Below, one piece after another: positions 1 through 27,371 of a stretch of 31,208 nt of DNA (the first letter of the stretch is position 1; the number at the start of each line of letters is the position of its first letter). The notes under the pieces were generated by a model. That model was not told the DNA's origin. It did not search any database and saw only the letters and a program-made list of their open reading frames with translations. Origin of the DNA: a virus; the IMG/VR virus record IMGVR_UViG_3300049733_000107, positions 1-31,208 of that record. One strand, 5' to 3'. A program made the translations under genes and the position numbers.

Positions 1-179
1 GGCAACCTCGCGACGGCGCAGGTTTCGGACCGGGGTCATTCGACCGATGGCACGGGGTGTGACGCCGGGGTCCGGCGGCGGTTCACGAGGGATCGCGATC
101 CCGTCTCGCCGGGGTCCGCCAGGGATGCGCGCTGGGATCCGTGGGGTTTTGTCGTGGATGTCGTCTCGGTGAGGGAAGC
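1..179. other. Non-coding region upstream of terS, candidate packaging site
   Basis: No convincing gene is seen before the small terminase gene. The stretch contains a 12-bp direct repeat CGCCGGGGTCCG at 63-74 and 107-118, a related CCGGGGTC at 30-36, and between the two repeats a perfect 14-bp palindrome GGGATCGCGATCCC at 89-102. Terminase small subunits often bind repeats next to their own gene, so this could be a pac/cos-type site or a late operator. That role is inferred from position only. Confidence 0.35.
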
Positions 180-671
180 ATGCGAGGACCGAAACCCATG
201 CCGACGGCGATCCGGATGCAGCGCGGCAATCCCGGCCGCCGGCCGATCAACACGCGGGAACCGACGCCGGATCCGCTCGATCTCGAGGCGCCGGCCTCCC
301 TGTCGCCGGCGGCGGCCGTCGAATGGGCGCGCCTGGCGCCGATGCTGGCGGCGCGTGGCCACGTGACCGCCGCGGACCGGGCGGCCTTCATCGGGTATTG
401 CGTCAAGTTCGCGCAGTGGGACGCGCTCGAGGCGGCGGCGCGCCAGGCCCCGTTTGTCGTGACCGCACCCTCGGGCTATCCCATCCCGAATCCGGCGATC
501 GGCATGGCGAACAAGGTGTTTACGCTGCTGTTGAAAGCGGCCGCGGAGCTCGGGTTGACACCGTCCTCCCGCTCCCGTGTCCAGGCCGTCAAGGAACCGG
601 ATGCCGCAAGCCCGCTCGCCAAACTCCGCGCCAAAGCGGCCGCCGTCCAGGCGCTCCGCCGCGTCAAGTAG
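180..671 (+). CDS. terS: Phage terminase small subunit, P27 family
   Basis: Small subunit of the DNA-packaging motor; it recognises phage DNA and hands it to the large subunit. The 163-residue protein opens with RGPKPMPTAIRMQRGNPGRRPIN; the basic GNPGRRPIN block (residues 16-24) is typical of P27-family small terminases, and the length fits. A helical segment rich in Ala follows, with a basic tail. I chose the ATG at 180 because it has a gagggaag ribosome site and starts directly at the family motif; an in-frame upstream start at 141 would add 13 unrelated residues. The large terminase follows directly, which supports the call. Confidence 0.88.
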   Translation: MRGPKPMPTAIRMQRGNPGRRPINTREPTPDPLDLEAPASLSPAAAVEWARLAPMLAARGHVTAADRAAFIGYCVKFAQWDALEAAARQAPFVVTAPSGYPIPNPAIGMANKVFTLLLKAAAELGLTPSSRSRVQAVKEPDAASPLAKLRAKAAAVQALRRVK

Positions 672-705
672 CGGACTCGGACCCTGGTCCCGGTTCCGGC
701 ATCGG

Positions 706-2385
706 GTGGACACCTACGCGCGCCGGGTCCTGGGGGATCCGCGGGCTGGCGCGCCGATCGTCGCGGGGCCGCACGTCCGCGCGGCCTGTCAGCGGCATCT
801 GGCCGATCGCGTCCTGGCGGCGCACCGCGGCGGCCATCCGCGCGGCCTGGCGTTTGTCCCAGCGGCCGCGGACGTGGCGATCGGGTTCTACGAGAAGGTC
901 CTGCGCCTCCCGGATACGCGGGACGCTGCCGGCGATCCGAAGCCGTTCCGCCTCGAGCCGGCCTTGGCCTTTATCGTTGGCTCCCTGACCGGCTGGATCG
1001 GTGCCGACGGGTACCGGCGGTACCGCGAGGCGTACATCGAGATGGGCAAGGGCAACGCCAAGACGCCACTCCTGGCGGGCCTCGGCCTCTTCGGCCTGAC
1101 GATGGACGGCGAGACGGCGCCGGAGGTGTACGCCGCGGCCGTGACGCGGGACCAGGCGCGGGTGATGTTCCGGGACGCCGAGCGCATGGTCGACGCCTCG
1201 CCGGCGCTCGCGGAGCTGGCGATTGTCCGCACGGTCAATAACTTGGCCGCTGGCCTCGGGTTCTTCCGGCCGTTCAGCCGCGATCAGGGCGTGAAGTCCG
1301 GTCCGCGGCCGCACATGGCGCTGATCGACGAAGTCCACGAACACACCTCGCCGGAAGTCATTCTGAAGATGAAAGCCGGCTTCAAGTTTCGCCGGCAACC
1401 GCTCGCGGCGTACATCACCAACAGCGGCTTCGATCGCACGTCCATCTGCTGGCAGCTGCGCCAGCATGCGGAGCGCGTCCTGGCCGGCGCGCTCGAGGAC
1501 GATCGCTTTTTCGCCTACGTGTGTGCGCTGGATGACGGAGAGGATCCGCTCGAGGACGAGGCCTGCTGGATCAAGGCCAATCCGCTCCTCGGCGTGACGA
1601 TTACGCCGGAGTACCTCCGCCGCCAGGTCGACAACGCGCGGCATCTGCCCAGCGAACGAAACACGGTCCTTCGCCTCAACTTCTGTGTCTGGACGCACAC
1701 GCATACGCGCGCGATCGATCTCGCCTTGTGGGACGCCTGCGATCCGCGGCCGCCGGATCGCGATCTGGTCGGCCGGCCGTGTTATGGCGGGCTCGACCTC
1801 GGGCAGTCCGACGATTTCACGGCGTGGGCGCGTGTCTGGGAGCTCGCAGACGGCGGCCTGGCGGTGAAGATGCGGTTCTGGATTCCCCAGGCCACGCTGG
1901 CGAAATATCCCGGCCGGCCGTATGGCGACTGGCAACGCGCCGGGCTGCTGACGATCACGGAAGGCAACACGACCGACTATGACGTCGTCGAAACAACGGT
2001 CGCGGCGGACTGCGCCGCGGACGGGATCCGGGAAGTCGCCTACGACAAGCGCTTCGCGGAACAGATGGCGCAACATCTGGCCGGCGCCGGGATCACGATG
2101 GTGAACACGCCGCAGGGCTTCGGCCTGAACGAAGCGATCCGCAAGAAGCTGGAGCTCATTACGACCGGCGCGCTTCGCCACGGCGACGACGCGATCCTCG
2201 GGTGGATGGCGACGAACTACGTCCTCCGCCACGGCACCAAGGGCGAAGTCCGGCCGGACAAGGAACACGCTGGCGATAAGATTGACGGACAAGTGGCGCT
2301 CGACATGGCGATCGATCGGCTCGTCCGCCGGCCTGTGACGAAACCGCCGCACTATCAGATTTTTGTCTTTGGGGGCGGCGCCTGA
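706..2385 (+). CDS. terL: Phage terminase large subunit (Terminase_1 type)
   Basis: ATPase-nuclease that drives DNA into the prohead and cuts it. With a GTG start at 706 the protein has 559 residues. The Walker A-like loop is MGKGNAKT (113-120), with Ala where the usual Gly precedes the Lys. Walker B is ALIDEVHEH (D208, E209). The C-terminal RNase-H-like nuclease begins at GGLDLGQSDDF (D364), and a late acidic residue sits in DGQVALDMAIDR near the end. The frame is open back to a GTG at 577, inside terS, but that extension only repeats terS sequence in another frame; the family's usual N-terminus (YARRV..G..IVAG..VR.AC.RH) begins at the GTG at 706. Start choice is moderately sure; function is very sure. 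Confidence 0.93.
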   Translation: MDTYARRVLGDPRAGAPIVAGPHVRAACQRHLADRVLAAHRGGHPRGLAFVPAAADVAIGFYEKVLRLPDTRDAAGDPKPFRLEPALAFIVGSLTGWIGADGYRRYREAYIEMGKGNAKTPLLAGLGLFGLTMDGETAPEVYAAAVTRDQARVMFRDAERMVDASPALAELAIVRTVNNLAAGLGFFRPFSRDQGVKSGPRPHMALIDEVHEHTSPEVILKMKAGFKFRRQPLAAYITNSGFDRTSICWQLRQHAERVLAGALEDDRFFAYVCALDDGEDPLEDEACWIKANPLLGVTITPEYLRRQVDNARHLPSERNTVLRLNFCVWTHTHTRAIDLALWDACDPRPPDRDLVGRPCYGGLDLGQSDDFTAWARVWELADGGLAVKMRFWIPQATLAKYPGRPYGDWQRAGLLTITEGNTTDYDVVETTVAADCAADGIREVAYDKRFAEQMAQHLAGAGITMVNTPQGFGLNEAIRKKLELITTGALRHGDDAILGWMATNYVLRHGTKGEVRPDKEHAGDKIDGQVALDMAIDRLVRRPVTKPPHYQIFVFGGGA

Positions 2386-2610: not shown

Positions 2611-4482
2611 ATGTGGCGCGCCGCCTCGGTCCTCGAGCTGAAATCGTTCGATGACGAACAGCGCATCATCGAAGGGATCGCCACGACGCCGACGCGGGAC
2701 CACGCCGGCCATCACGTCGATCCGCTCGGCGCGGAATTCCGCCTGCCGCTGCCGCTGCTCTGGCAACACGATCAGAAACAACCGATCGGGGAAGTGATCG
2801 CGGCGTCGGTCACCGACGCCGGGATTGCCATCCGCGCGAAACTCGCCCGGATTGACGAACCGGGACGACTGCGCGATCGGCTCGAGGAGGCCTGGCAGTC
2901 CATCAAGGCCGGGATTGTCCGCGGCCTGTCGATCGGGTTCCTGCCGATTGATGCGACACCGATCAAGACCGCGAGCGGCTGGGACCTGAAGATCCGGAAA
3001 TGGCACTGGGGCGAATTGTCGGCGGTGACAATTCCCCAGAATGCCGAGACGACGATTACCGTCGTGAAAGCGGCCGCGATGGGCCATCACTCGCCCGGCG
3101 TTTCGGGCGCACGCAAGGACGTCCCGATGACCATCACGGAACAAGTCACGCAGTGGAGCACGACCCGGGCGCCGAAAGCGGCGCGCCTGGCGGAGCTGAT
3201 GAGCAAGTCCGCCGACAAGGGCGAGACGCTGAACGACGCGGAGGCGCAGGAATTCGACGGCCTCGAGCTCGAGATCAAGAGCATTGACGCGCAGATCACG
3301 CGCCTCCGCGCGGCCGAAGCGCTGCAAGCGGCGCCGACGCCGATCACGCCGGTAACGTCGATGGCGCAGGCGAGTGCGCAACGCGCCGGGACGCCGGTAA
3401 TCACGGTGAAAGCGACCGTCCCGCCGGGGACTGCGTTCGTGCGCTACACGTGCGCGATGCTCGCCTGCAAGGGCAACATGTTCGAGGCGAGCGAATACGC
3501 GGCGCGGCGCTGGGCCGATTCGACGCCCGAAGTCGCGCTGCAGCTCAAGGCGGCCGTCGCGCCGGGCACCGTGACCGATGCCACGTGGGCCGGGCCGCTC
3601 GTCAATCCGTCGATCGCCGCGGACTTCATCGAACTGTTGCGGCCGGCGACGATCCTCGGCAAAATCCCGGGGCTCCGCAACGTCCCGTTCAACACGAAAG
3701 TGCCGTCCCAGACGGCCGGCGGCACGTATGGATGGGTGGGCGAGGCGAAGCCGAAGCCGGTGACCAAGCTCGCCTTCAGCGCGGAAACGCTCGGCATCAC
3801 GAAGGCCGCCGGGATCATCATCCTGACGGAGGAGCTCGTCCGCCTGTCGAATCCCTCCGCGGAAGCCCTGGCGCGGAACGACATGATTGCCGGGATCGCG
3901 CGGTTCCTGGATTCGCAGTTCATCGATCCGGCGATCGCGGCCGTGACCGGCGTCAATCCCGCCTCGATCACCAATGGCGCGCCGACGGCGGCCGCCACGA
4001 CGAATCCGCTGGCGGACGTGATGACGCTGCTCAATTACTTCGCCACGAACAACGTCCCGATCGACGGCGTCACGCTGATCATGTCGCAAGCGAACGCGCT
4101 GGCGCTGTCGTTCAAGAACAACAGCGACGGCAGCCCGGTGTTTCCCGGCGTCGGCGTCAACGGCGGATCGTTCAAAGGGATCAACATCGTCACCAGCCAG
4201 GCGGCCGGGACGAACGTGATCGGCGTGCAGCCGTCCTTGATCCTCTACGCGGACGATGGCGGCGTGACGATCGACATGTCGCGGGAAGCGTCGGTGCAGA
4301 TGGATTCGGCGCCGGCGAGTCCACCCGATGCGACGACCGTGCTCGTGTCGCTGTGGCAGAACAACCTGGTCGGCCTCCGCGCGGAACGGTTCGTCAATTG
4401 GAAGCGCGTCGGACCCTCGGTCATGTATCTGACGGCGGCGGCCTATCCGGCGCCGGCGGAACTGCCACCGGTCACGCCGTAA
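2611..4482 (+). CDS. Fused prohead protease and HK97-type major capsid protein
   Basis: One 623-residue reading frame joins two proteins that most HK97-like phages encode separately. Residues 1 to about 160 are an S78-type prohead protease, with candidate catalytic His53 (LLWQHDQ) and Ser107 (GLSIGF). Residues 173 to about 240 form a charged, coiled-coil delta (scaffold) segment. From about 270 the HK97-fold capsid protein follows, recognisable by GPLVNPSIAADFIELLRP, GWVGEAKPKPVTKLAF and ILTEELVRLS. The protease would mature the head by removing the delta segment. An in-frame ATG at 3127 with AAGGA seven bases upstream could also give a separate 451-residue capsid precursor. No stop or frameshift separates the parts. 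Confidence 0.9.
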   Translation: MWRAASVLELKSFDDEQRIIEGIATTPTRDHAGHHVDPLGAEFRLPLPLLWQHDQKQPIGEVIAASVTDAGIAIRAKLARIDEPGRLRDRLEEAWQSIKAGIVRGLSIGFLPIDATPIKTASGWDLKIRKWHWGELSAVTIPQNAETTITVVKAAAMGHHSPGVSGARKDVPMTITEQVTQWSTTRAPKAARLAELMSKSADKGETLNDAEAQEFDGLELEIKSIDAQITRLRAAEALQAAPTPITPVTSMAQASAQRAGTPVITVKATVPPGTAFVRYTCAMLACKGNMFEASEYAARRWADSTPEVALQLKAAVAPGTVTDATWAGPLVNPSIAADFIELLRPATILGKIPGLRNVPFNTKVPSQTAGGTYGWVGEAKPKPVTKLAFSAETLGITKAAGIIILTEELVRLSNPSAEALARNDMIAGIARFLDSQFIDPAIAAVTGVNPASITNGAPTAAATTNPLADVMTLLNYFATNNVPIDGVTLIMSQANALALSFKNNSDGSPVFPGVGVNGGSFKGINIVTSQAAGTNVIGVQPSLILYADDGGVTIDMSREASVQMDSAPASPPDATTVLVSLWQNNLVGLRAERFVNWKRVGPSVMYLTAAAYPAPAELPPVTP

Positions 4483-4487
4483 CGGCC

Positions 4488-5870
4488 GTGCAGGTGTTCG
4501 GCTGGACGATCACGCGGACCAAAGCCGCCCCGACGCTGGCGCCCATCGTGCGTGCCCGCGGCGGCGGCGGCTGGTGGCCGCTGATCATCCGCGAACCGTC
4601 CACGGGCGCGTGGCAGCGGAACGAGGAGATCCGGCCGGAGCTCGCGTTGGCCTACGCGCCCGTCTTTGCCTGTACCACGCTGATCGCCTCCGACATCGGC
4701 AAACTGCGCCTGCGCCTGGTGCAGCAGGACGAGGATGGCATCTGGCACGAAACGACGAATCCCGCCTGGTCGCCGGTCCTGCGGAAACCAAATCACTATC
4801 AAACGACGCAGAAGTTTCTCGAACAGTGGATCACGTCGAAGCTGATTCACGGCAACGCCTACGCGCTGAAACAGCGGGACGAGCGCGGCGTCGTCCGCGC
4901 GCTCTATCTGCTGGATCCGACGCGCGTGACGCCGCTGGTGGCGCCGGATGGCGCCGTGTTCTATCGCCTCGATCGGGATGATCTGTCCGGCGTGACGGAG
5001 GGCGATCCGCGGCCGGCCGTGCCGGCGAGCGAGATCATTCATGACTTGATGGTGGCGCTCTTTCATCCGCTCTGCGGCGTGTCCCCGATCTTTGCGTGCG
5101 GCCTGGCCGCGAGTCAGGGCCTGGCGATTCAACGGACGTCCAGTTCGTTTTTCAGCAACGGATCCACACCCGGCGGGATCGTGCTCGTCCCGGGCGATAT
5201 CAGTATCGAGACGGCGCAGCAGCTCAAGACGTACTGGGACACGAACTACAGCGGCGTCAACGTCGGCAAGGTCGCCGTCCTCACGAACGGGATGACCTAT
5301 CAGGCGACGAGCGTGAACGCGACGGACGCGCAATTGATCGAACAGTTGAAATGGTCCGGCGAAACCGTCTGCACGTGCTACCACGTCCCGCCGTCGATGG
5401 TGAACATTGGGCCGCTGCCGCCGTACGCGAACAGTGAACCGCTCGTCCAGCAGTACTACTCGCAATGCTTGCAGGCGCTGATCGTCGCGCTCGAGACGAG
5501 TCTCGACGAAGGCCTCGAGCTTCCGCGGCCGTACGGGACGGAGCTCGATATCAGCGATCTCATCTGGATGGACACGGACACGCGCACGAAAGCCGCGGGC
5601 GATGCGATCGGCGCCGGCGCCATGTCGCCGGATGAGGCGCGCAAGACCTACTTCGGCCTCGGGCCGGTCCCGGGCGGTGACACGCCGTACATGCAGCAGC
5701 AGTACTTCAGCCTGGCGGCGCTGGCGGAACGGGACGCGGAGCAACCCTTCGCCAAACCGGCGCCGGCCGCGCCGCCGACGCCGGCGACGCCTGAGGACGA
5801 CGACGAGGATCTCAACGTGGCCGCCTTCGCCGTGACGTTGTATCGGAAGAGCCTGGAGTTCTATGCCTGA
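4488..5870 (+). CDS. Phage portal protein, HK97 family
   Basis: Forms the twelve-fold ring at the head vertex through which DNA passes. The 460-residue length is usual. Recognisable stretches are AYAPVFACTTLIASDIGKL near the N-terminus, LIHGNAYALKQRDERGVVRALYLLDP, GVSPIFACG, SSFFSNGSTPGGIV, and the late CTCYHVPPSMVNIG and MSPDEARKTYFGLGPVPGGD segments. Start is the GTG at 4488, five bases after the capsid stop; the frame is open further upstream only because it shadows the capsid gene. In most HK97-like phages the order is portal, protease, capsid; here the portal comes after the capsid. Confidence 0.93.
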   Translation: MQVFGWTITRTKAAPTLAPIVRARGGGGWWPLIIREPSTGAWQRNEEIRPELALAYAPVFACTTLIASDIGKLRLRLVQQDEDGIWHETTNPAWSPVLRKPNHYQTTQKFLEQWITSKLIHGNAYALKQRDERGVVRALYLLDPTRVTPLVAPDGAVFYRLDRDDLSGVTEGDPRPAVPASEIIHDLMVALFHPLCGVSPIFACGLAASQGLAIQRTSSSFFSNGSTPGGIVLVPGDISIETAQQLKTYWDTNYSGVNVGKVAVLTNGMTYQATSVNATDAQLIEQLKWSGETVCTCYHVPPSMVNIGPLPPYANSEPLVQQYYSQCLQALIVALETSLDEGLELPRPYGTELDISDLIWMDTDTRTKAAGDAIGAGAMSPDEARKTYFGLGPVPGGDTPYMQQQYFSLAALAERDAEQPFAKPAPAAPPTPATPEDDDEDLNVAAFAVTLYRKSLEFYA

Positions 5871-6366
5871 TTACGATGCGCTGGCCGACATCGTGATCAT
5901 GACGATCAAGCGCGCACAGGCGCCGCTGCTCGATCGGATTACCCTGCTCGAGGCCAACCTTGCCCTGGTCGAGTCGTACGCTTCCGTGGGTGAGCTCGCC
6001 GGCCTCCGCGAACGGATCGCCAGGCTCGAGACACGCGCCCCCGTCCCTGGGCCGCCCGGCGCCGACGGCAAGGACGGCGCCGACGGCCTGGGGATTGACG
6101 ATCTCCGGCTCGAGCAACGCGACGAACGCACGATGGCGCTCGCCTACGTCCGCGGCAGTGTCGTCAAAGACCTGGGCGTCGTGACCTGGCCGATCGCGCT
6201 CTATCGCGGCGTCCATGTCGAAGGGAAGGCTTACGACGCCGGCGACACGGTCACCTGGGCAGGCTCGGTCTGGTACTGTAAAACGACGACGACGGCCAGA
6301 CCCGGGGAAGGGCATCCGGCGTGGATGCTGATGGTCAAACGCGGCCGCGACGGGAAAGGCGCGTAA
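5863..6366 (+). CDS. Coiled-coil and collagen-like structural protein
   Basis: A 167-residue protein overlapping the portal gene by 8 bases. Residues 10-58 are predicted helical with heptad spacing (LLDRITLLEANLALVESYASVGELAGLRERIARLE). A short collagen-like run of Gly-X-Y triplets follows (GPPGADGKDGADG). The C-terminal part has YRGVHVEGKAYDAGDTVTWAGSVWYCK, which resembles the small carbohydrate-binding modules (CBM5/12-like) seen in phage fibres and decoration proteins. A trimeric head decoration or fibre-like protein is the likely role; its position next to the portal favours the virion. No exact family is recognised. Confidence 0.7.
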   Translation: MPDYDALADIVIMTIKRAQAPLLDRITLLEANLALVESYASVGELAGLRERIARLETRAPVPGPPGADGKDGADGLGIDDLRLEQRDERTMALAYVRGSVVKDLGVVTWPIALYRGVHVEGKAYDAGDTVTWAGSVWYCKTTTTARPGEGHPAWMLMVKRGRDGKGA

Positions 6367-10856: not shown

Positions 10857-12491
10857 ATGCCGCTAGCCGGAACCCTTCAAGCCGATTTCTCGCCGTTCTT
10901 CGAGGCCGTCCAGAAGGCGGAGATCGAGCTCAAGTCCTTTGAGACGGGCGCCGTCAAAGTCGAAAGCGCGCTCTCGCGCATGGTGGACAGTTTCAGCGGC
11001 CGCCGGTTGATCCAGGACGCCACGCTGATGATCGAAGCCGTCGAGCGGATCGGCGGCGTCACGAAACTCACCGACGAAGATATGGCGCGGCTGACGCGGA
11101 CCGTGGAAGGCGCGAAAGCCAAGATGGTGGCGATGGGGGTCGAGGTTCCGGCGGCCTTTGACAACGTCATCACGTCCGCGAAACAGACCGAGACCGCCTT
11201 CAAGGCCATGGACGACGCGCGGCCGCTGGTGAAGGTGGGCGATCACGCGACCGGCGCGATGGGGAAACTCGGGAAGTTGTCCGGCGAGGTCGCGAAAGTC
11301 GATCGGATTCTCGGCCTCGCCGGCGTGTCCGCATCGCAATACGGCGCCGCCCTGGGCGAGCTCGAAGTCTTGGCGAGTGTCGCGGCCGGCGGGATGACGG
11401 TGCTGACGGGCGGCCTCCTGGCCGCCGGCGCGGCGCTCCTGGTGGTCAATACGGACTGGGAGAAACTCGATCGCACGATCGCGGACTCGACGGCGAAGCT
11501 GTTCGGCTGGGGCGATGCGGCGAAAGAGGAAGCCGGCGCCGTCCAGGACTTGCTGGATCGCGCCTCCAAGATCGCCGGCCATTCGATCACGACGATGGCG
11601 GAGGCGCAACGCGTGATGGAAGACCACGCGAACCGCTTCCGCAAAGCGGCAGAGGATGCCTACAAGCGGCAGCTCGAGATCTGGAAGGAACTGGACGCCG
11701 CGGCGAAGGCGCAGGCGGACACGATTCGGACCGCCTTCGATCAGATGTTCGGGACACCGATCCTGGACAAGATGGAGACGACGCAAGCGGCGCTGTCGCG
11801 GTTCAAGACGCTCGGGCTCGAACCGATCAAAGCCGTGTGGCCGGAAATCGTGAGCCAGGCCAAAGAGGCGATGCAAGTGCTCGAGGATCGCGGGCTGAAC
11901 GCGACCGACCGGTTCCGCACGCTGGCCGCGATCGTCAAAGAGTTTTCGGACAAGCTCGCCCAGATCCCGATCGCGTCCACACGGATCCCGGGCGCCGCCG
12001 GCCTGATTACGCCCACCGTCGGCGGCGGCATGGGCTCCCAGGATCAGACCGCGATCGTCAACGCGACGGAGCTCGCGAACTGGTTGGAGCGCGCGACGAA
12101 AGAACAGCAGGAGCTCGACGCGGAAGTCCGGAAATTCTACGAGCTCCAGGGGTCCGTGTTTGACGAGCTGACCGACGGCGCCGCCGGCGCGACGGCCGCG
12201 GTCGATCGCCTCGGCAACGGGATCGCGCGGACGCGCGCGGAGCTCGAGGCGCTGGCGCGGACCATGACGCAGGCGCAATGGCTCAGCGGCAAGCCGGCCG
12301 GGATGAGTGTCACGGAATATCTTGAGACGTCGGGCCCGGCGTTGCAGGCGCTGCGCGCCGCCGGCCGTGGGCCGATGGGGGCGCCCACGGTAATCGTCAA
12401 CGCGCAGAACTCGTTCTTCGATACGCCGACGGGGCAACAGCGGCTGGCCGGCAAAGTGTCCGCCGCGCTGCTGTCGAGTAGCGGACGGTAA
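10857..12491 (+). CDS. Tail tape measure protein
   Basis: 544 residues, rich in Ala, Glu and Lys and mainly helical. The start, LAGTLQADFSPFFEAVQKAEIELKSFETGAVKVESAL, is the common tape measure opening (LQADFS.F..A...AE..L). A hydrophobic stretch at about 160-200 (ASVAAGGMTVLTGGLLAAGAALLVV) is the membrane-like segment seen in many tape measures and thought to help DNA entry. The length suggests a short tail, of the order of 80 nm by the usual 0.15 nm per residue rule. It directly follows the chaperone frameshift product. Confidence 0.85.
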   Translation: MPLAGTLQADFSPFFEAVQKAEIELKSFETGAVKVESALSRMVDSFSGRRLIQDATLMIEAVERIGGVTKLTDEDMARLTRTVEGAKAKMVAMGVEVPAAFDNVITSAKQTETAFKAMDDARPLVKVGDHATGAMGKLGKLSGEVAKVDRILGLAGVSASQYGAALGELEVLASVAAGGMTVLTGGLLAAGAALLVVNTDWEKLDRTIADSTAKLFGWGDAAKEEAGAVQDLLDRASKIAGHSITTMAEAQRVMEDHANRFRKAAEDAYKRQLEIWKELDAAAKAQADTIRTAFDQMFGTPILDKMETTQAALSRFKTLGLEPIKAVWPEIVSQAKEAMQVLEDRGLNATDRFRTLAAIVKEFSDKLAQIPIASTRIPGAAGLITPTVGGGMGSQDQTAIVNATELANWLERATKEQQELDAEVRKFYELQGSVFDELTDGAAGATAAVDRLGNGIARTRAELEALARTMTQAQWLSGKPAGMSVTEYLETSGPALQALRAAGRGPMGAPTVIVNAQNSFFDTPTGQQRLAGKVSAALLSSSGR

Positions 12492-12494
12492 CGC

Positions 12495-15400
12495 ATGCCG
12501 ATCAGCGGATCCGATCCGGCGCTGATGGTGGCGCGCCTGGGCGTGATGCGCCTCGGCGCGACGCGGCTCGCCTACTATCCGCCCGCGTTCGCGTTCTCGA
12601 TCGCCGGCGTCCCGATCACGCAACCCGTGATCCGCGTGGCCGAGCTCCAGATTACGGATTACTTGGACGGGCAACCGAATCTGGCCACGTTCCGCATGGA
12701 CACGATCACGCCGCTCCCAGGCCAGGAGATTCGGATCGGCCTCGGCGGTCTCGGCGCGTCCGAAACCTACTTCGCCGGCAACATCCAGACGGTCAATCAG
12801 GTCTACGAAGCGGACGTGCGCCAACATGTCGCCTGGGACGTGACGGCGATCTCGTACGAATGGCTGATGAACCGGCGCCGCGTGACCAAGCGCTATCTCA
12901 ACGAACGCGCCGGCGCCATCGCAATCGATGTGATCGGCAATTTCACCTCCGGGTTTACGTCGCACCATGTGGATCCGAACCTGGCCGTCATTCCGGAATT
13001 CACCTTTACGCATGCGTTCGTGACCGACGCGCTCGACCAGCTGGCGCGCGCCGCCGGCGGCTATTGGTTCGTTGATACCCAACGGGACCTGCACTTTTTT
13101 ACGGAGGCGGCCGATCAGGTCCATCCGATCACGGACGCGGACGATCACTCGGCAGCGGACCTGGCGAAGGCGGAGGATCTCGAACCGGTGCGGACGCGCG
13201 TCCTGGTGGAAGGCGGCGGATCGGACACGACGATCCCGATCGATCCCGGCGCCACGACGATCCCGCTCGAGGACGTCGCGCTGTTCGCGGCCGGCGGCGG
13301 GACGGCCGTGCAGGATACGCAACGCTTCACGTATACCGGGACCATTGCGGCGGACGTCGCGGCGAGTAACGTCGGTGGCGCGCCAGGGCCGGCGGCGCCC
13401 ACGGCCGCATTGACGACCGGGATCGGGGACGTGATCGGGACCGTCCGCTACCGCGTGAGTCTCCGCCGCGGCTCGAGTGAAACCGTGCCTGGCGATCCCT
13501 CGGGTCCGGTGACGGGGATCGCTGTGACGCCGCCGACGGCGCCGACGGCGCTCCTGGCGCTGACGGGCGGCCCGCTCGCCGGCGAGTACAGCTACGGCTG
13601 CACGTTCGTGACGTCCCGCGGCGAAACGACGATGAGCGGCCTGTCCGTGATTACGACGACCGCCGTGGCCGCGCCAGGCACCATCAGTGTGGCGCCGCAC
13701 GCCGGCGCCGTCGGGCGCCTGGTGGGGACGTTCCTGTATGCGCTGACGTTCGTCACGGCGCGCGGCGAAACGGCGCCGGGGGCGGACTCCGCCGCCGTGA
13801 CGGCCACGGCCCACGCGGCGCCGCCGGCGGTGACGATTGCGGCCACGGGATCAATCGGGCCGCTGGTGGGGACCTACCGGTACAAGATTACGGGCGTGAC
13901 GGCGCTCGGCGAAACGCTCCCCAGTCTCGAGGCGTCGCGGACCGCGGCGGCCGTGGCGGCGCCCACCTATTCCGTCCTGACACTGGCGGAAGTCTCGACC
14001 ACGATCGGCCGGCTGATCGGCGCGTACACGTACCGCGTGTCGTTCGTCACGGTCTACGGCGAAACGCTCACCGGGAATGCAACGACGATCACGCCGGCGG
14101 CGCACACGGGCCCGGGCGGCTGGTCCTGGACGGCCAGCGGCACCGGCGTGGGCCCCATCGCGGGCGTCTCCTACGCCTACAAGGTGTCGTTTGTCTCGGA
14201 GCTCGGGGAAAGCCTCAGTACGGCGTCCACGTCTGCGACCATTACCGGCGTGACGGCGACGGCGCCGAGCGTCACGGTGAATAGCGGGACGGGGGAGAAC
14301 GGCTACGCCGTGACGTGGGTCCATCCGGAATGGGGCGAATCCGAGATCAGCGGCCGCACAGTCATCAGTGGCACGAACAATACCGTCTTTGTGACGAACC
14401 TCCCGGCCGGCTGTGGCTGGAACGTCTACGCGACGGGCACCGTCCCGGCCGGCAACGGGGCGACGGCCGTGCTGTACCGGGTGGCCGAGAGGGCCGTCGG
14501 CGCCGCGAGCTTCACGCACACAACCCAGACGGGACCACAAGCCAGCGTCCGTGCCACGCTCGGCCGCGCGGTCGTGGTGTCCGGGATCCCGGCGGGCCCG
14601 ACCGGGACGACGGCGCGCCGCGTCTACCGGACGCGCGCGAATGCGCCCGCGTCGTTTCTCCTGGTCGGACAGATTGACGGGAACGCCGCCGGCGCCTCGT
14701 TCACGGATACAGTTCCGGATGCGGCGCTCACCACCTTCGCGCCGACGTCCAACCTGAACGGCAAACAGATCACGATCACGATCCCGACCGGGCCGGCGAC
14801 GACGATCGCGCGGCGCCTCTACCGCTCGCGCGTCGGCAACAGCGGCCTGTACCTCCACACGCAGATTGACGGGAACGGATCGGCCACGGTGACGGACAAT
14901 CAGCCGGACGAAGCGTTGACCGTTCTGCCGCCGACCGTCGCCACGGCTGGCGGCGAAGAACAGCAAGTCAACCTCCTGGCCGGACCGACGGGAACGATCG
15001 CGCGGCGCCTCTATCGGACGACCGCCGGCGGATCCGAATTTCGACTGCTGGCGGAGATCCCGAATAACACGGCGCCGACCTACCTCGACGCGAAGGCCGA
15101 TAGTGAACTCGGCGCGACGACCGAACCGGTGACGAGTACCGCCGGCGGCCAGGCGATCGACGTGATCGCGATCCCGGTGGCGCCGGCCGGCGTGACGGCG
15201 CGGCGCCTCTATCGCCGGCGTTCGGGGACGCCCACCTATCGCCTGGTGGCGCCGATCGAGGACGGGGCGAGTACCTATCTCGACGATCGGCCGGATGATG
15301 CGTTAGGCGAACCGCCGCCGATCGCCAGTACCGCCGGCGGCCAGTCCGTCCAGGTGACGCTGCCGATCGGCCCCACGGGGACGACGGCGCGCCGGTTCTA

Positions 15401-16358
15401 TCGGTCCCGGAGCGGCGGCGGCGCGCTCGGCTACGCCGGCGCGATCAGCGGCAATGTCACGCCGGCGATTGTGGACGATCGGCCGGATGATGCGCTCGGC
15501 GAACCGCCGCCGCTGGTGAACACGGCCGGCGGATCCATGGTGGCGCTGTCCAATCTCCCGATCGGCCCGACCGGGACCACGGCGCGCCGCATCTATCGCA
15601 CGAAGGGCGGCGGCGCGGACTACTTCTACCTGCGGCAGATTACCGATAACACGACGCTCAGCTACACGGACGATGCGTCCGACGACGATCTCCACGACCT
15701 GGCACCGACGGCCAGCACGATCGGCGCGCTGGCCGGTGACACGTCGCTCCGCCTCGAGTCCACGACGGGCTTTCCCGCGGGCGGCTGGGTCCGCGCGGAT
15801 TCGCAAGTCCTCCGCTATACCGGCGTGTCCGGCGCGTTTCTGACGGGGATGCCCGCGAGCGGCCTCGGCGCCATCACGGCGGCGATCGCGGCCGGCTCCG
15901 CAGTCCTCGTCGAACCGCACTTGATCGGGGTCGTCGGCGTGTCCGTGTCGATGCCGGCCGGGACGACGATCCATCTGCTCGTGACGCGGGACGACGCCGC
16001 GGCGCAAGCGGTGATGGCGGCGCGCGTCGGCGGCGACGGCATCACCGAAGAGTACGTGACGGATGATCGCTTGTCCGTGGCGGAGGCGATCGAACGCGGC
16101 GATGCAAAACTCCTGGAGCTCAAGGATCCCGTCGTGACGATCCGCTATCGGACGCACGATCGGACAACGCGGAGCGGCCGCGAAGTCACGATCAATGTCG
16201 GCGCGCCGAACAATATCGTCGGGACGTACAAGATCCAGCAAGTGACGTACACGGAGTTTGATCCGTTGATGATCCGCTTTCCGCTCTGTACCGTGACGGC
16301 GAGCTCGCGGCGCGCGTCCTTTGATGCGATCGTCCGGCTGTTGAAGGGATACGTCTGA
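12495..16358 (+). CDS. Baseplate hub-like tail protein with two inserted tandem repeat arrays
   Basis: 1287 residues. The N-terminal part (to about 290) looks like a tail hub (gp27/gene D-like): PVIRVAELQITDYLDGQPNLATFRMD, YFAGNIQTVNQVYE, and later AAGGYWFVDTQRDLHFF. The C-terminal 200 residues return to hub-like sequence (SVAEAIERGDAKLLELKDPVVTIRYRTHD, VGTYKIQQVTYTEFDPL). Between them lie two repeat families: about seven copies of a 48-50 residue unit with YxY.v.FVT..GET (about 318-610), then six copies of a 62-65 residue unit with GPTGTTARR.YR (about 700-1080). These look like fibronectin- or immunoglobulin-type beta modules. They would project from the hub and may bind the cell surface. 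Confidence 0.75.
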   Translation: MPISGSDPALMVARLGVMRLGATRLAYYPPAFAFSIAGVPITQPVIRVAELQITDYLDGQPNLATFRMDTITPLPGQEIRIGLGGLGASETYFAGNIQTVNQVYEADVRQHVAWDVTAISYEWLMNRRRVTKRYLNERAGAIAIDVIGNFTSGFTSHHVDPNLAVIPEFTFTHAFVTDALDQLARAAGGYWFVDTQRDLHFFTEAADQVHPITDADDHSAADLAKAEDLEPVRTRVLVEGGGSDTTIPIDPGATTIPLEDVALFAAGGGTAVQDTQRFTYTGTIAADVAASNVGGAPGPAAPTAALTTGIGDVIGTVRYRVSLRRGSSETVPGDPSGPVTGIAVTPPTAPTALLALTGGPLAGEYSYGCTFVTSRGETTMSGLSVITTTAVAAPGTISVAPHAGAVGRLVGTFLYALTFVTARGETAPGADSAAVTATAHAAPPAVTIAATGSIGPLVGTYRYKITGVTALGETLPSLEASRTAAAVAAPTYSVLTLAEVSTTIGRLIGAYTYRVSFVTVYGETLTGNATTITPAAHTGPGGWSWTASGTGVGPIAGVSYAYKVSFVSELGESLSTASTSATITGVTATAPSVTVNSGTGENGYAVTWVHPEWGESEISGRTVISGTNNTVFVTNLPAGCGWNVYATGTVPAGNGATAVLYRVAERAVGAASFTHTTQTGPQASVRATLGRAVVVSGIPAGPTGTTARRVYRTRANAPASFLLVGQIDGNAAGASFTDTVPDAALTTFAPTSNLNGKQITITIPTGPATTIARRLYRSRVGNSGLYLHTQIDGNGSATVTDNQPDEALTVLPPTVATAGGEEQQVNLLAGPTGTIARRLYRTTAGGSEFRLLAEIPNNTAPTYLDAKADSELGATTEPVTSTAGGQAIDVIAIPVAPAGVTARRLYRRRSGTPTYRLVAPIEDGASTYLDDRPDDALGEPPPIASTAGGQSVQVTLPIGPTGTTARRFYRSRSGGGALGYAGAISGNVTPAIVDDRPDDALGEPPPLVNTAGGSMVALSNLPIGPTGTTARRIYRTKGGGADYFYLRQITDNTTLSYTDDASDDDLHDLAPTASTIGALAGDTSLRLESTTGFPAGGWVRADSQVLRYTGVSGAFLTGMPASGLGAITAAIAAGSAVLVEPHLIGVVGVSVSMPAGTTIHLLVTRDDAAAQAVMAARVGGDGITEEYVTDDRLSVAEAIERGDAKLLELKDPVVTIRYRTHDRTTRSGREVTINVGAPNNIVGTYKIQQVTYTEFDPLMIRFPLCTVTASSRRASFDAIVRLLKGYV

Positions 16359-17416
16359 TGCCCACCCAGATTTCCCGCGTCTGGTACACCACGCTGATCG
16401 ATGACGACGGGTCCGGCACGACGGGGACGCCGTGGGCGAAGGCCAGCGTCGATGCCATGTATGGCGACATCAACGCGATCTTCGCGGGCAGCGTCACGTT
16501 CGGCGGCACCGTCAACAGCGAAGTCATCGGCACCCACCGATTCTCCGGGGCGAGTCCAGGTGGAAACACCCTCCGTATTTTCAACACGCAAGCGGCCTCG
16601 ACGAATTGGGCCGCCGTACAAATCGGCAACGACGTCGCCGAGGATCGGAGTGGCCTCTATTGTTTCTCGACCCAGTACGCGACATCAGGGGCACAAAAAG
16701 CCGACGGCGCGTTGCTCGCGGCCAACGGGTCTGGCGGACTCGTCCTGTCGGCGACGTCTGGCGCCGCGACGGTGGAACTGTGGACGAATGGATCGCGGCG
16801 GCAACAATGGAATCCCGATGGCTCGATCGAATACACGGCGGCCGCGCCGTCCGCGTGGACGTTCAACGGGATCGATGCGGCTGGCGGGCAGCTCCGGATC
16901 CAGAAGAACGGCACGAACCTGCTCAACCTTGGGCCCGGATCGATCATCGGCTTCGGCGGCGCCAACGACGCCAACGTCTACGCTGGCGCCGGCGCGCTGA
17001 TGCTCGAGTCCGCGGTCAGCGTCCGCTCGACGACGGTCTATGCGGCGACCACGAGCGATCCCGCGAACGTCAACATTCAATCCAACTATTCGCTCACGCG
17101 ATCCACGTCCTCCCTCCGCTACAAACGGGACGTGCAGCCCCTCGAGGCGTGGCGCTGGCTGCTCGCGCTCAGCCCGATCACGTTCCGGGATCGCGCGCGG
17201 CCTGGCCGGCGCTACGGCGGTCTGGCGGCGGAAGATGTCGCGGCGCACGGCCCGCGCGGTGAGGACGGGCGGCCGCAATACGCGGGCCTGGACGCCGACG
17301 GCCGGCCGGATGACGTGGCCTATACCCAGCTGGTCGCGCCGCTCGTGGCGGCCGTCCAGGAGCTCCATGCTCGTCTTGCCAGTCTCGAACGAAAGGACGA
17401 TCCCATATGCCTCTGA
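16358..17416 (+). CDS. Tail fibre with C-terminal S74 intramolecular chaperone
   Basis: 352 residues, start overlapping the hub stop by one base. Residues 1-240 have the Gly/Ala/Ser/Asn-rich beta pattern of a fibre (short strands, VTFGGTVNSEVIGTHRFSG, LRIFNTQ). Residues 251-352 are a peptidase S74 chaperone: STSSLRYKRDVQPLE, then LLALSPITFR, YGGLAAEDVA, and a final helix LVAPLVAAVQELHARLASLE. The Ser-Lys dyad is most likely Ser251 and Lys256, matching the S-x4-K spacing of the family; cleavage before Ser251 would release the chaperone after trimer folding. A receptor-binding role is likely. Confidence 0.88.
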   Translation: MPTQISRVWYTTLIDDDGSGTTGTPWAKASVDAMYGDINAIFAGSVTFGGTVNSEVIGTHRFSGASPGGNTLRIFNTQAASTNWAAVQIGNDVAEDRSGLYCFSTQYATSGAQKADGALLAANGSGGLVLSATSGAATVELWTNGSRRQQWNPDGSIEYTAAAPSAWTFNGIDAAGGQLRIQKNGTNLLNLGPGSIIGFGGANDANVYAGAGALMLESAVSVRSTTVYAATTSDPANVNIQSNYSLTRSTSSLRYKRDVQPLEAWRWLLALSPITFRDRARPGRRYGGLAAEDVAAHGPRGEDGRPQYAGLDADGRPDDVAYTQLVAPLVAAVQELHARLASLERKDDPICL

Positions 17417-19763: not shown

Positions 19764-21026
19764 CTATGTCTTCCCGCCGCGGACCAGCCTGGGGGCCATG
19801 GGGGACGCGGCTGGCGGTGGCGTCGGTTTGCCCCAGTGTTCGGACAACTTCGCGACGGCGGCGCTCAGCAGCGCGGACTGGGCGCCGAGCGTGTAGCGCT
19901 GCGTGATCGCCGTGCTGTGCGCCGAATGCTGCAGCAGCGCGCCGACGGTGTGCAGATCGCCCGTGAGCCGCAGTGCTTCCGTGCCGAAGCTGTGGCGGCA
20001 ATCGTAGGGCCGGCAGTCCGGCGGGATCGCGCCCAGGAACGTCTGGCGCTCCTTTTGGGTTTTACACGCCTTCGCCACGCGCGCGATCGCTTTCTGCCAG
20101 GTCTTCCGCATCGCCGAATTGGAGAAGTCGCCCCAGAGATTCGCCGCGGCGAAGTCCCGCAAGGCGTCGACGGCCGGCGGTAGGAGCGGGAGCCACACCT
20201 TGGCGGTGCCTCTCCCTTTGCGGCGCGCGGCGGCGTAAAGGTGCGGCCCGGGCGGGTGCATGTTCGTGCGCAGCCCCAGCAGATCGACCGTGTGCGGCGT
20301 CAGCGCTTTCACCTGCGTATGCGGCAAGCCGGTATAGACCATGACGCGCAAGCGGATTTTCGTATGGTTGATCGGCGGCCGCGGCTGGCCACGCTCCGCG
20401 CGGCCGTGATTGGGGATCGCGTCGATGATGCGCTCGACGAGATCGATCGGGATGCCGCGCGCCTCGGCCGTCGGTTGCGCCAGCTTCGCGATCTTCTCCG
20501 CCGGGTTGTAGGCGTCCTCATCGTCGTCGAGCACGCGGTAGAGCGTGCGCAACACGCGCACCCGATGGTTGATCGTGTTCGCGGCATAGCCGGCCTCTTG
20601 CCAGCGGGCACACTGCACACGCACATCTTCACGCGTGAGATCGGACCGCAGCACGTCGCCGAGCGTGCCGCGTTTCGGCGTGGTCGGATCGACCGGCGCG
20701 TCCAGCCACGGTTTCAGGTGATTCTCGAAATCGTCACGCCGCGGACTCTGCGGCATCGTCGCCAGGAAGCGCGGCACATCCGCACGCAGTGTGTCCCCGG
20801 TCGCTCGCTGCGGCTGACCCTCGCGGAGCTCGGCGCGGCGACGATCGCGCCACGCCTGCGCCTCCCGCACAATCTCTTTCAGGTCGCGATCGCCTTGCTG
20901 CCAGCGCGCTTCATCGCTGCGCTTCGTGCGGCCTGAGCCGACCTGCACCGTCGCGCGGATGCCGCTGCCGTCCAGATACACGCCTTCGGCCAGGCGCTGC
21001 CACTGCTCCTCACGCTTGTGGGCCAT
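19764..21026 (-). CDS. int: Tyrosine-type integrase
   Basis: 420 residues, AGGAG nine bases before the ATG. The N-terminal part probably binds the arm sites; a core-binding helical domain (residues about 90-185: LTREDVRVQCARWQEAGYAANTINHRVRVLRTLYRVL) comes before the catalytic domain. In it, the box usually holding the first Arg reads YTGLPHTQVKAL (T232-GLPHTQ), with Pro-His in place of Arg. Later residues are present: RKGRGTAKVWLPL supplies a Lys, YDCRHSFGTEAL gives R344 and H345 (Tyr in place of the first His), LLQHS gives H367, and QRYTLG gives the nucleophile Y378. Acts on the adjacent attP and a host tRNA-Arg gene. Confidence 0.9.
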   Translation of the reverse strand: MAHKREEQWQRLAEGVYLDGSGIRATVQVGSGRTKRSDEARWQQGDRDLKEIVREAQAWRDRRRAELREGQPQRATGDTLRADVPRFLATMPQSPRRDDFENHLKPWLDAPVDPTTPKRGTLGDVLRSDLTREDVRVQCARWQEAGYAANTINHRVRVLRTLYRVLDDDEDAYNPAEKIAKLAQPTAEARGIPIDLVERIIDAIPNHGRAERGQPRPPINHTKIRLRVMVYTGLPHTQVKALTPHTVDLLGLRTNMHPPGPHLYAAARRKGRGTAKVWLPLLPPAVDALRDFAAANLWGDFSNSAMRKTWQKAIARVAKACKTQKERQTFLGAIPPDCRPYDCRHSFGTEALRLTGDLHTVGALLQHSAHSTAITQRYTLGAQSALLSAAVAKLSEHWGKPTPPPAASPMAPRLVRGGKT

Positions 21027-22675: not shown

Positions 22676-23779
22676 ATGTCGACGACGGCGATCGCGACCC
22701 CATCCAAGACCCCGACGCCGGCGCCCGTCTCCACGGTGCGCAGCCTGCTGATGGACAAACAAGGCGAAATTGCCGCCGCGCTGCCGCGGCACATTCCGCC
22801 GGCCTACTTCCTGCGCGTCGTGCTGACCGCCGTGCAGAAGAACCCGCAGCTCGCGCAGTGCTCGTCGATCTCGTTTCTCGGCGCGGTGCTGCAGTGCGCG
22901 CAGCTCGGCCTGGTGCCCGATGGCTTCCTCGGCCAGGCGTATCTCATCCCGTACGACAACCGGCAGAAGGGCCTCAAGGAAGTCCAGTTCCAGGCCGGCT
23001 ATCGCGGCCTGATCACGCTGGCGCGGCGCTCTGGCGACGTCACCAACATCGGCGCCGAGGTGGTGTACGCGAAGGACGCCTTCAGCTTTACGCGCGGCAT
23101 CAATCCCACGATCGCCCATACGCCGTTTGCCGTCGACGACCAGGACGCCGGGCCGCTGACGCACGTCTATGCGTGGTTCAAGCTGCGCGACGGCGGCTAC
23201 GACCTCGCGGTGCTGACGCGGCGCGACGTCCACAAGATCCGCGATCGGTCGCAGGCGTACCGGCAAGGGGTGAAGAGCGGCCGGCAGGACTCGCCCTGGT
23301 TCACCGACGAAGCGTGGATGTGGAAGAAAACGGCGCTCAAGCAACTGTTGAAGCTGGCGCCGATGTCCGTCGAGATCCAGCGCGCCGCGGTGCTCGATGA
23401 CGTCGCCGAGGTGGGCTTACCGCAGGACCTCGCGGTGCTGGCCGATCCGACGGCCGAAGCGACGGCACTGCTCGAGGGGGACACCGACGATCCGCGTGAG
23501 ACCGATCTCGAGATGCCGACGCGCACGATCGATCCGCCGCCGGCGGCCGCGATCCCGACGACGACCACGACGACCACTCTCGCGATCGTCGATCGCATCC
23601 TCGAGACGGGCCAGGGGACGAACGCGTGGAGCGCGACGACGCAGGGCGGGCTGAAGCTGTGGACGCGGGATGCGGGCCTCGGTCAGCAGTTGATCGCGGC
23701 GAAAGGCGCGCTGCGGCAATTCACCGCCGAGCCCGCCGACGCACAGGGCCGCCGCAAGCTGATCGCGATCGCGGAGTAA
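22676..23779 (+). CDS. recT: RecT-family single-strand annealing protein
   Basis: 367 residues. RecT proteins coat and anneal single-stranded DNA in phage recombination. Diagnostic stretches are LPRHIPPAYFLRVVLTAVQKNPQLAQCSSISFLGAVLQCAQLGLVPDG, GQAYLIPYDNR, EVQFQAGYRGLITLARRSGDV, and TRRDVHKIRDRSQAY with SPWFTDEAWMWKKTALKQLLKLAP. The start has 'aaggag' upstream of the ATG. The C-terminal 100 residues are an acidic linker with seven Thr in a row and a small end domain (AIVDRILETGQG...LWTRDAGLGQQL), which is longer than in the classical RecT. A matching nuclease lies about 970 bases downstream. Confidence 0.95.
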   Translation: MSTTAIATPSKTPTPAPVSTVRSLLMDKQGEIAAALPRHIPPAYFLRVVLTAVQKNPQLAQCSSISFLGAVLQCAQLGLVPDGFLGQAYLIPYDNRQKGLKEVQFQAGYRGLITLARRSGDVTNIGAEVVYAKDAFSFTRGINPTIAHTPFAVDDQDAGPLTHVYAWFKLRDGGYDLAVLTRRDVHKIRDRSQAYRQGVKSGRQDSPWFTDEAWMWKKTALKQLLKLAPMSVEIQRAAVLDDVAEVGLPQDLAVLADPTAEATALLEGDTDDPRETDLEMPTRTIDPPPAAAIPTTTTTTTLAIVDRILETGQGTNAWSATTQGGLKLWTRDAGLGQQLIAAKGALRQFTAEPADAQGRRKLIAIAE

Positions 23780-26496: not shown

Positions 26497-27371
26497 TCTA
26501 CCTGCTCGAGGAGATCGACGCCGATCCGAAGATCCTCGAGGCCGGCCGGCTGGCGAAAGCGAAGGGCGGCCGGTACTACATTCTTGGGGTCTTTGTGGCG
26601 GCAATCGGTTACTGCCGGCGCTACAAGACCGACGGCCATCTGCCGCGATCATTTTTTTTAGACAAAGACAAAGCCGGATCGGTGGCGCCGTCGCTGCGTG
26701 CGGGCTTGATCCAAAAAACGAAGACCGGCGACTACGTTATTCCGAGTTACCTCCGTTACAACCGGTCCGCGGCCCAAGTCCAGCAGACACTACAACTTCA
26801 GCGAGAACGGATGGCGAAATTACGCCGTCACAACCAGGGCGCCGCCGGGCGTGACACGAGCGGCGGTGACGCTGATGTGCGCGCGCACCCGACGGCTGGT
26901 GACGCTGATGTGCGTAATGGTGACGCCAATGTGCGCGTACCCACGATCCACGATCCACGATCCACGAAGAACAGAGGTACTCCAGCCAACCAGCACGATC
27001 TCCCGGTACTGAGTACGTCTTCCGATCGTGCTGCTTCCAAGAGAGAACAGCGGACGCGGACGTCCGCGCATTCTCCCCCTGTGGAAAACCTGACGAAGGA
27101 AGGAAAGAACCGCCTGGCGAAAGTGCCGGCGGCGGATGGGAACTTTGCCGTGCTGGTGTGCCTGACGCACGACGTTTTAGACGAGCTCGGCAGCGGCACG
27201 CCGCGACCGAGCGATCCCGATCTGCTCGAGGCGGTGAAGCTGGCGGCCGCGAAGTGGCACATCGCCTACGACCAGGGCGACACGTTGACACGTGCGGTGA
27301 CGGCAGCGGTGAAACAACGGCTCGGTGGGAAGTCTGCGCCCCTGCCGGCGTTGGCGCGGGGCCGGTGTTGA
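26493..27371 (+). CDS. Phage replication initiation protein (Rep/DnaD-like)
   Basis: 292 residues, GTG start with GGAGG upstream, overlapping the previous stop by four bases. The N-terminal domain (YLLEEIDADPKILEAGRLAKAKGGRYYILGVFVAAIGYCRRYKTDGHLP, then SLRAGLIQKTKTGDYVIPSYLRYN) resembles the winged helix DNA-binding part of phage initiators. A low-complexity linker (about 120-215) is encoded by DNA repeats. The C-terminal domain (EAVKLAAAKWHIAYDQGDTLTRAVTAAVKQRL) is helical. It would bind an origin inside its own gene, as lambda O does. No helicase gene is present in the window. Confidence 0.7.
   Translation: MIYLLEEIDADPKILEAGRLAKAKGGRYYILGVFVAAIGYCRRYKTDGHLPRSFFLDKDKAGSVAPSLRAGLIQKTKTGDYVIPSYLRYNRSAAQVQQTLQLQRERMAKLRRHNQGAAGRDTSGGDADVRAHPTAGDADVRNGDANVRVPTIHDPRSTKNRGTPANQHDLPVLSTSSDRAASKREQRTRTSAHSPPVENLTKEGKNRLAKVPAADGNFAVLVCLTHDVLDELGSGTPRPSDPDLLEAVKLAAAKWHIAYDQGDTLTRAVTAAVKQRLGGKSAPLPALARGRC
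26865..26968 (+). repeat. Candidate origin repeats inside the replication gene
   Basis: Three copies of GGTGACGCTGATGTGCG (26865-26881, 26898-26914, and 26919-26935 with GCCAAT in place of GCTGAT) are followed by nearly four tandem CCACGAT units (26941-26968). They lie in the part coding for the protein's linker. Clustered repeats in the middle of a phage initiator gene are the standard appearance of an origin. That function is inferred. Confidence 0.6.

Follow-up and report, generated by a model that had tools for sequence, protein, structure and literature searches.

Nested domain insertion is known, and the deepest precedent found, as far as our searches reach, is the Si3 insertion of the cyanobacterial RNA polymerase beta' subunit, for which six-level nesting was described in a survey that covered 2.7 million classified domains and whose text makes no mention of phages or viruses (PMC13114784). 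Si3 resembles the phage insert described here in that copies of a small beta domain are inserted in one another, each serving as both guest and host, so that a large machine carries an elongated insertion; several insertions at one node also occur in Si3, as would be the case in the branched forms among the phage relatives. Si3 differs in its building block (the hybrid motif/HABAS domain), in the protein that carries it and in its six levels, versus the seven predicted below the hub in the present case, and the phage hub family, unlike Si3, offers a whole series of depths. No nested domains in phage tails were found in the literature searched, of which coverage was partial. Within the reach of these searches, a phage hub family with seven self-nested levels and a natural series of depths would be new.

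The protein in question is encoded on a viral contig, all 31,208 nucleotides of which were analyzed (hereafter, the window). Its reading frame of 1287 aa was confirmed, with hub segments flanking the repeat arrays (Table 1), and it is very probable that between these segments copies of a single beta-sandwich, putatively Fn3/Ig-like, are nested recursively to a depth of seven levels and form an arm from the hub. The 31-kb contig further carries terminase, portal, protease-major head fusion, probable tape-measure, fibre-like and integrase genes. The open reading frame (ORF) preceding the hub gene has no Pfam or PHROG match and is probably the tape measure, an assignment made from gene position; in the Thermoanaerobacterium phage THSA-485A, an array-less 433-aa homologue of the hub protein lies directly 3' of the annotated tape-measure gene. 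With the probable tape measure before it and a fibre gene after it, the hub gene has the position of a gp27/Mu gp44-type hub.

Several other features of the window were recorded. The portal looks split (4571-5870 and 5863-6366): the ORF at 3450-5870 matches portal families up to about the middle (phrog_2271, 23-416 of 859), and the ORF overlapping it at 5863-6366 matches the C-terminal end of the same family (769-858). A protease-capsid fusion is encoded at 2611-4482, with matches to head maturation protease and major head protein families. A phage integrase family match on the minus strand (19764-21026; phrog_1, 1e-22) makes a temperate lifestyle probable. A RecT-like annealing protein lies at 22676-23779, and a perfect short tandem repeat (CCACGAT x3.9) at 26941-26967. 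Two scans of genome contigs for relatives returned nothing in the first case and only two weak, short matches in the second.

Table 1. Coordinates of the hub gene, its nested units and its neighbors in the window.
Feature	Position	Strand	Basis or remark
Probable tape-measure protein	10857..12491	+	Directly 5' of hub ORF; long ORF in the place of annotated tape-measure genes in THSA-485A and vir515
Hub ORF	12495..16358	+	
Hub N-terminal part	12495..13223 (residues 1-243)	+	Residues 1-283 54% identical to L004; L021 equivalent in gp27/gp44-type hub
N-flank YTG module (..RFTYTG)	13224..13343 (residues 244-283)	+	Array starts just after; hhalign to C-flank module
A1, left half of predicted outermost nested domain, partner B7	13368..13538	+	HMM hit; pairing inferred from balanced strings and covariation
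A2, putative partner B6	13539..13688	+	HMM hit
A3, putative partner B5	13689..13832	+	HMM hit
A4, putative partner B4	13833..13982	+	HMM hit
A5, predicted partner B3	13983..14129	+	HMM hit; AF2 range ~1-12..299-310
A6, predicted partner B2	14130..14276	+	HMM hit; AF2 range 40..251
A7, left half of predicted innermost (tip) domain, contiguous with B1	14277..14378	+	Weak HMM hit; AF2 range 95..173
B1, right half of predicted tip domain	14379..14564	+	No HMM hit, 65-aa gap; conserved in L004, 58%; AF2 range 95..173
B2, predicted partner A6	14565..14756	+	HMM hit; AF2
B3, predicted partner A5	14757..14954	+	HMM hit; AF2
B4, putative partner A4	14955..15146	+	HMM hit
B5, putative partner A3	15147..15335	+	HMM hit
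B6, putative partner A2	15336..15527	+	HMM hit
B7, right half of predicted outermost nested domain, partner A1	15528..15719	+	HMM hit
C-flank YTG module, complete (..RYTG..LTGMPASGLGAI..)	15720..15923	+	
Hub C-terminal part	15924..16355	+	Residues 1076-1287 63% identical to L004; L021 equivalent shares the hub fold of the N part
Tail-fibre-like gene	16358..17416	+	Directly 3' of hub ORF; phrog_1980 tail fiber, 7e-8

Outside the insert, the protein is predicted to be a tail hub of the gp27/Mu gp44 type, based on its homology to a short relative, L021 (40% identity to the N-part of the window hub), which was modelled with AlphaFold2 from a 16-sequence alignment. Over the range 30..752 of this model, about 300 residues from both sides of the array align to many gp27/Mu gp44/MuSo2-type hubs at Z 16-21, which places L021 and, by homology, the window protein among these hubs. 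The first-pass annotation had called the protein hub-like and had proposed structure prediction of the joined ends; in the L021 model, the N and C parts form one hub and jointly match the known ones at Z about 20. The gp27, Mu gp44 and MuSo2 43-kDa hubs (PDB 1k28, 1wru, 3cdd) thus share the predicted fold outside the insert, but their listed single-hub chains have about 325-365 residues, and the nested insert accounts for the 1287 aa of the window protein. The HFTV1 baseplate hub gp44 (9h4p, PMC12494034) has a homologous hub fold (Z 20.8) and extra projecting globular domains; of its 953 residues, the hub alignment covers only 20-345, and the extra part lies outside the hub range and does not correspond to the insertion site in the window. 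Pfam returned nothing for the window protein, and the whole-protein query recovered no more than a distant hub match among named phage genomes. In another relative, L009, the hub N-terminal part (3886-4500) contains an inserted repeat, AFDPGAFDRGAFATA..SGAFDPTAFATA, which is absent from the window and has a shorter form in L019.

The insert consists of seven A units of ~49 aa (FVT..GET; residues ~292-628) followed by seven B units of ~63 aa (GPTGTTARR.YR; residues ~629-1075), ~785 aa together. Profile HMMs trained on the window units, with hits counted at >5 bits, found 222 A and 221 B units in the first set of relatives compared with 1 A and 0 B in shuffled copies. The two repeat families noticed in the first-pass annotation are therefore real, and its motifs and coordinates were correct; its array extent missed the degenerate middle pair A7/B1, overlooked as a result of divergence, which is conserved in L004 (61% and 58%). 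This relative is 51% identical to the window and likewise has 7+7 units, most of which can be matched position by position. Conservation between the two is 58/55% for the outer pair and 61/58% for the tip pair, versus 29-45% for A2-A6 and 35-44% for B4-B6; B2 and B3 (59% and 55%) lie off this trend. With the outer and tip pairs better conserved than most middle units, the pattern, apart from B2 and B3, would be compatible with a base and a functional tip separated by a spacer. Paralogue identity among the window units is 21-49% (mean 0.35 for A, 0.37 for B) and Tandem Repeats Finder detects no DNA-level array at the window repeats, so the arrays are old.

In L037, L055, L076, L038 and others, A and B alternate, and a contiguous AB of ~100 aa is the single repeating unit. 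A contiguous-AB profile matches solved chains in the PDB, namely 8jov_A over 120-217 (98 residues, almost the whole length; 2e-5) and 9vel_C (3e-5). These two lines of sequence evidence indicate that A followed by B is one ~100-aa beta-sandwich and that the families are its two halves; the description of them as unrelated does not hold, and they vary together. The AB-type domain has no Pfam match. Its beta-sandwich fold is shared with SPO1 Gp6.1 (9vel, Z 9.4) and the phicrAss001 tail muzzle (7qok, Z 7.6), and its sequence profile matches 9vel and 8jov, a virion-associated phage protein. In 9vel_B the domain is contiguous (281..401), whereas the window domain appears to be interrupted by an inserted domain of the same type. 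Matches to phrog_511, “internal virion protein”, reflect the shared AB/B domain and were rejected as an indication of the function of this protein. Between the first and second A of L037 and L055, ~106 residues (one-domain length) have no HMM hits and may be a diverged AB domain.

The arrays occupy one insertion site. The YTG modules that flank them are homologous (hhalign probability 96%, E=1.4e-9, 38 columns, with modules taken from the L021-family alignment), in keeping with the similar strand pattern ending in RYTG or FTYTG that had been noted on both sides. L020, L037, L055 and L043 have only one module, split by the array between RYTG and LTGIPASGxG; relative to these, the window has an extra, complete module on the C side of the array. 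Homologues without arrays occur in THSA-485A and vir515 (0+0 units), and a different short stretch sits at the insertion site in THSA-485A. The split modules and the single site bear out the proposal that the arrays were inserted in a single module.

Two scans of viral contigs yielded 90 independent array clusters (arrays <60% identical), 42 in the first set and 48 new ones in the second; the latter was queried with a different part of the protein using HMMs frozen after the first, and thus constitutes an out-of-sample test. Numbers of A and B were strictly balanced in 31 of the 42 clusters and exactly balanced in 39 of the 48, the other 9 being off by one. Across all 90 clusters (r=0.957), the difference was zero in 70, one in 19 and two in 1, with a mean of 0.23 versus 1.93 in shuffled pairings (lowest of 100,000 shuffles, 1.34). 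The only off-by-two cluster, L038, has an apparent frameshift around 6477, beyond which the two B units that it lacks and the hub C-terminus are encoded in the next frame. Nearly all off-by-one clusters contain a gap of ~56-81 residues at the expected place, which leaves room for one diverged unit; L022, with no B found, does not show this clue. The clearest support for diverged units comes from L061, in which a weak A is detected where its relatives L035 and L047 have a gap. Altogether, 20 of the 90 strings need a diverged (HMM-missed) or frame-shifted unit to balance, that of the window being B1.

Most strings take the form A^nB^n, with n about 1-7; L020, for instance, has 6+6 units and L089 has 5+5. 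The branched strings are few and all balanced: A(AB)6B in L037 and L055, AAAABBBABB in L043 and AAABABBB in L142. Every equal-count string obeys a bracket grammar, for which the chance in random order is about 1e-40 (shared ancestry not corrected for), and matched brackets imply that A_i pairs with B_(n+1-i). The linker from the last A to the first B is often only 4-30 residues, and separate array queries of phages gave no match. The hub tree records at least 15 changes of unit number, based on corrected counts with diverged units assumed. Relatives therefore do not share one fixed number of repeats, and the suggestion that such arrays change length easily stands as far as long-term variation goes; the ease of change is unsupported, with 7+7 units also in L004 and no DNA-level repeat. 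Hypervariability by slippage was rejected as the present state, given the lack of a DNA-level repeat and the positional match of window and L004 units.

The layout that we propose is hub[A1[A2[A3[A4[A5[A6[A7 B1]B2]B3]B4]B5]B6]B7]hub, in which the A-B loop of each domain would accept another copy of the same domain, seven times in the window. The chain would run outward through the A halves, turn at the contiguous tip A7-B1 and come back through the B halves, so that each level would be completed by strands of both passes and both chain ends would lie at the hub. If the two ends of the domain are adjacent at the base and its A-B loop is on top, the domain could be guest and host for itself; a copy inserted in that loop would stack a new level on top, and one level gained or lost would mean one A and one B. 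Self-insertion would account for the locked counts, the short turn linker and the branched strings, the last through several guests per loop. All seven levels may fold as stacked domains. The stack is probably an elongated arm on each hub subunit with its length set by the number of layers, roughly 25 nm assuming ~3.5 nm per level, and it may set the reach to, or present its tip to, the host surface. We consider it likely that the sandwich is self-recursive, that the hub arms follow a bracket grammar to seven levels versus the cited six, and that depth has repeatedly changed to set arm length. A nested stack could also be internal to the tail tip, as a plug or packed on the tail tube or fibre, and insertions in hub proteins can indeed lie inside or around the cone. 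This placement is unlikely on two indirect grounds: a depth that is large and varies among homologous hubs, from about 1 to 7 levels, fits more easily outside than inside a fixed cone, and the HFTV1 hub bears projecting globular domains (PMC12494034).

Equal counts would be expected as well if the halves paired in parallel order (A1-B1, A2-B2 and so on) or between chains of the hub by domain swapping. Covariation separates these orders. Mutual information between A and B was calculated for 78 proteins in which two or more pairs were detected (273 pairs) and compared with random partners within each protein. The mean was 0.2266 for nested, 0.2007 for parallel and 0.2000 +/- 0.0024 for random pairing, corresponding to z=11.3 for nested and z=0.3 for parallel partners, and 200 random nested/parallel mixtures never rose above 0.2165. 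Position effects are retained in the parallel order no less than in the nested one, so the surplus is attributable to the nested partners; a shared-history component could contribute, though parallel pairing shows none. An earlier, smaller run that included single-pair proteins gave 0.267 (nested), 0.256 (parallel) and 0.247 (random), with top-10 APC no better for nested; the larger partner-choice set was decisive.

The inner part of the stack was also modelled. An AlphaFold2 (AF2) model of window residues 497-821 (A5 A6 A7 B1 B2 B3; model residue = window residue - 496), built with 27 equivalent rows picked as A..B blocks, which presupposes the layout but not the contacts, reached pLDDT 89.0 and pTM 0.77. 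Pairing was read from VIA-align alignment ranges. The tip (A7-B1, 95..173) matches fibronectin type III domains weakly, at Z ~4; A6 with B2 (40..251) clearly matches the contiguous domain 9vel_B 281..401 (106 aligned, Z 9.4), which is the best match; and A5 with B3 (~1-12..299-310) matches several single beta-sandwich domains weakly (Z 3-4). As 106 residues align to a 121-residue contiguous stretch, ~100 model residues forming the tip are skipped. The three ranges are nested as the bracket pairing predicts. Foldseek found nothing significant in the PDB for the nested fragment, which is the outcome to be expected when a domain is split, and a library of predicted viral structures returned a long match to A0A6J5PZ96 (E=2.5e-14, TM 0.55 on query); no solved homologue of the nested array was found by sequence search. 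Recursive insertion, wherein an interrupted domain is itself interrupted, is thus indicated by balanced strings, nested covariation and nested alignment ranges. The three innermost pairs are predicted to be nested in the window from the model, and counts and covariation suggest the same for the four outer levels.

Hubs of the gp27/Mu gp44 type are trimers, a point in favor of swapping between chains. Parallel or swapped pairing is nevertheless improbable given the covariation, a turn linker that is often too short for a return from tip to base, and the nested ranges in a single-chain model; completion of A from one chain by B from another in nested register is conceivable. Two independent tandem arrays of unrelated repeats with their own duplications and rods, as the first-pass annotation had it, would suit the distinct consensus sequences and lengths and the uninterrupted arrays of the window but are highly improbable against A and B numbers locked across about 1-7, the alternation in L037, L055, L038 and L076, the contiguous AB that matches solved chains as a single domain, and the nested covariation.

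Tandem domain repeats usually lengthen by end-to-end addition, whereas growth by insertion of copies inside one another is what we propose for this family. Two repeat families that seem unrelated can, when they occur in one protein, be the halves of one domain, which an annotation pipeline would miss. With natural variants at depths of about 1 to 7 levels, as well as branched forms, in one homologous family, long-standing questions about domain insertion become directly testable, including: 1) how, during translation, one half of a domain waits on the ribosome while the hundreds of residues before its partner half are made; 2) whether nesting makes folding more cooperative or the structure stiffer; and 3) how levels are gained and lost. 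For phage biology, the nested stack would provide a predicted, countable arm on the tail tip.
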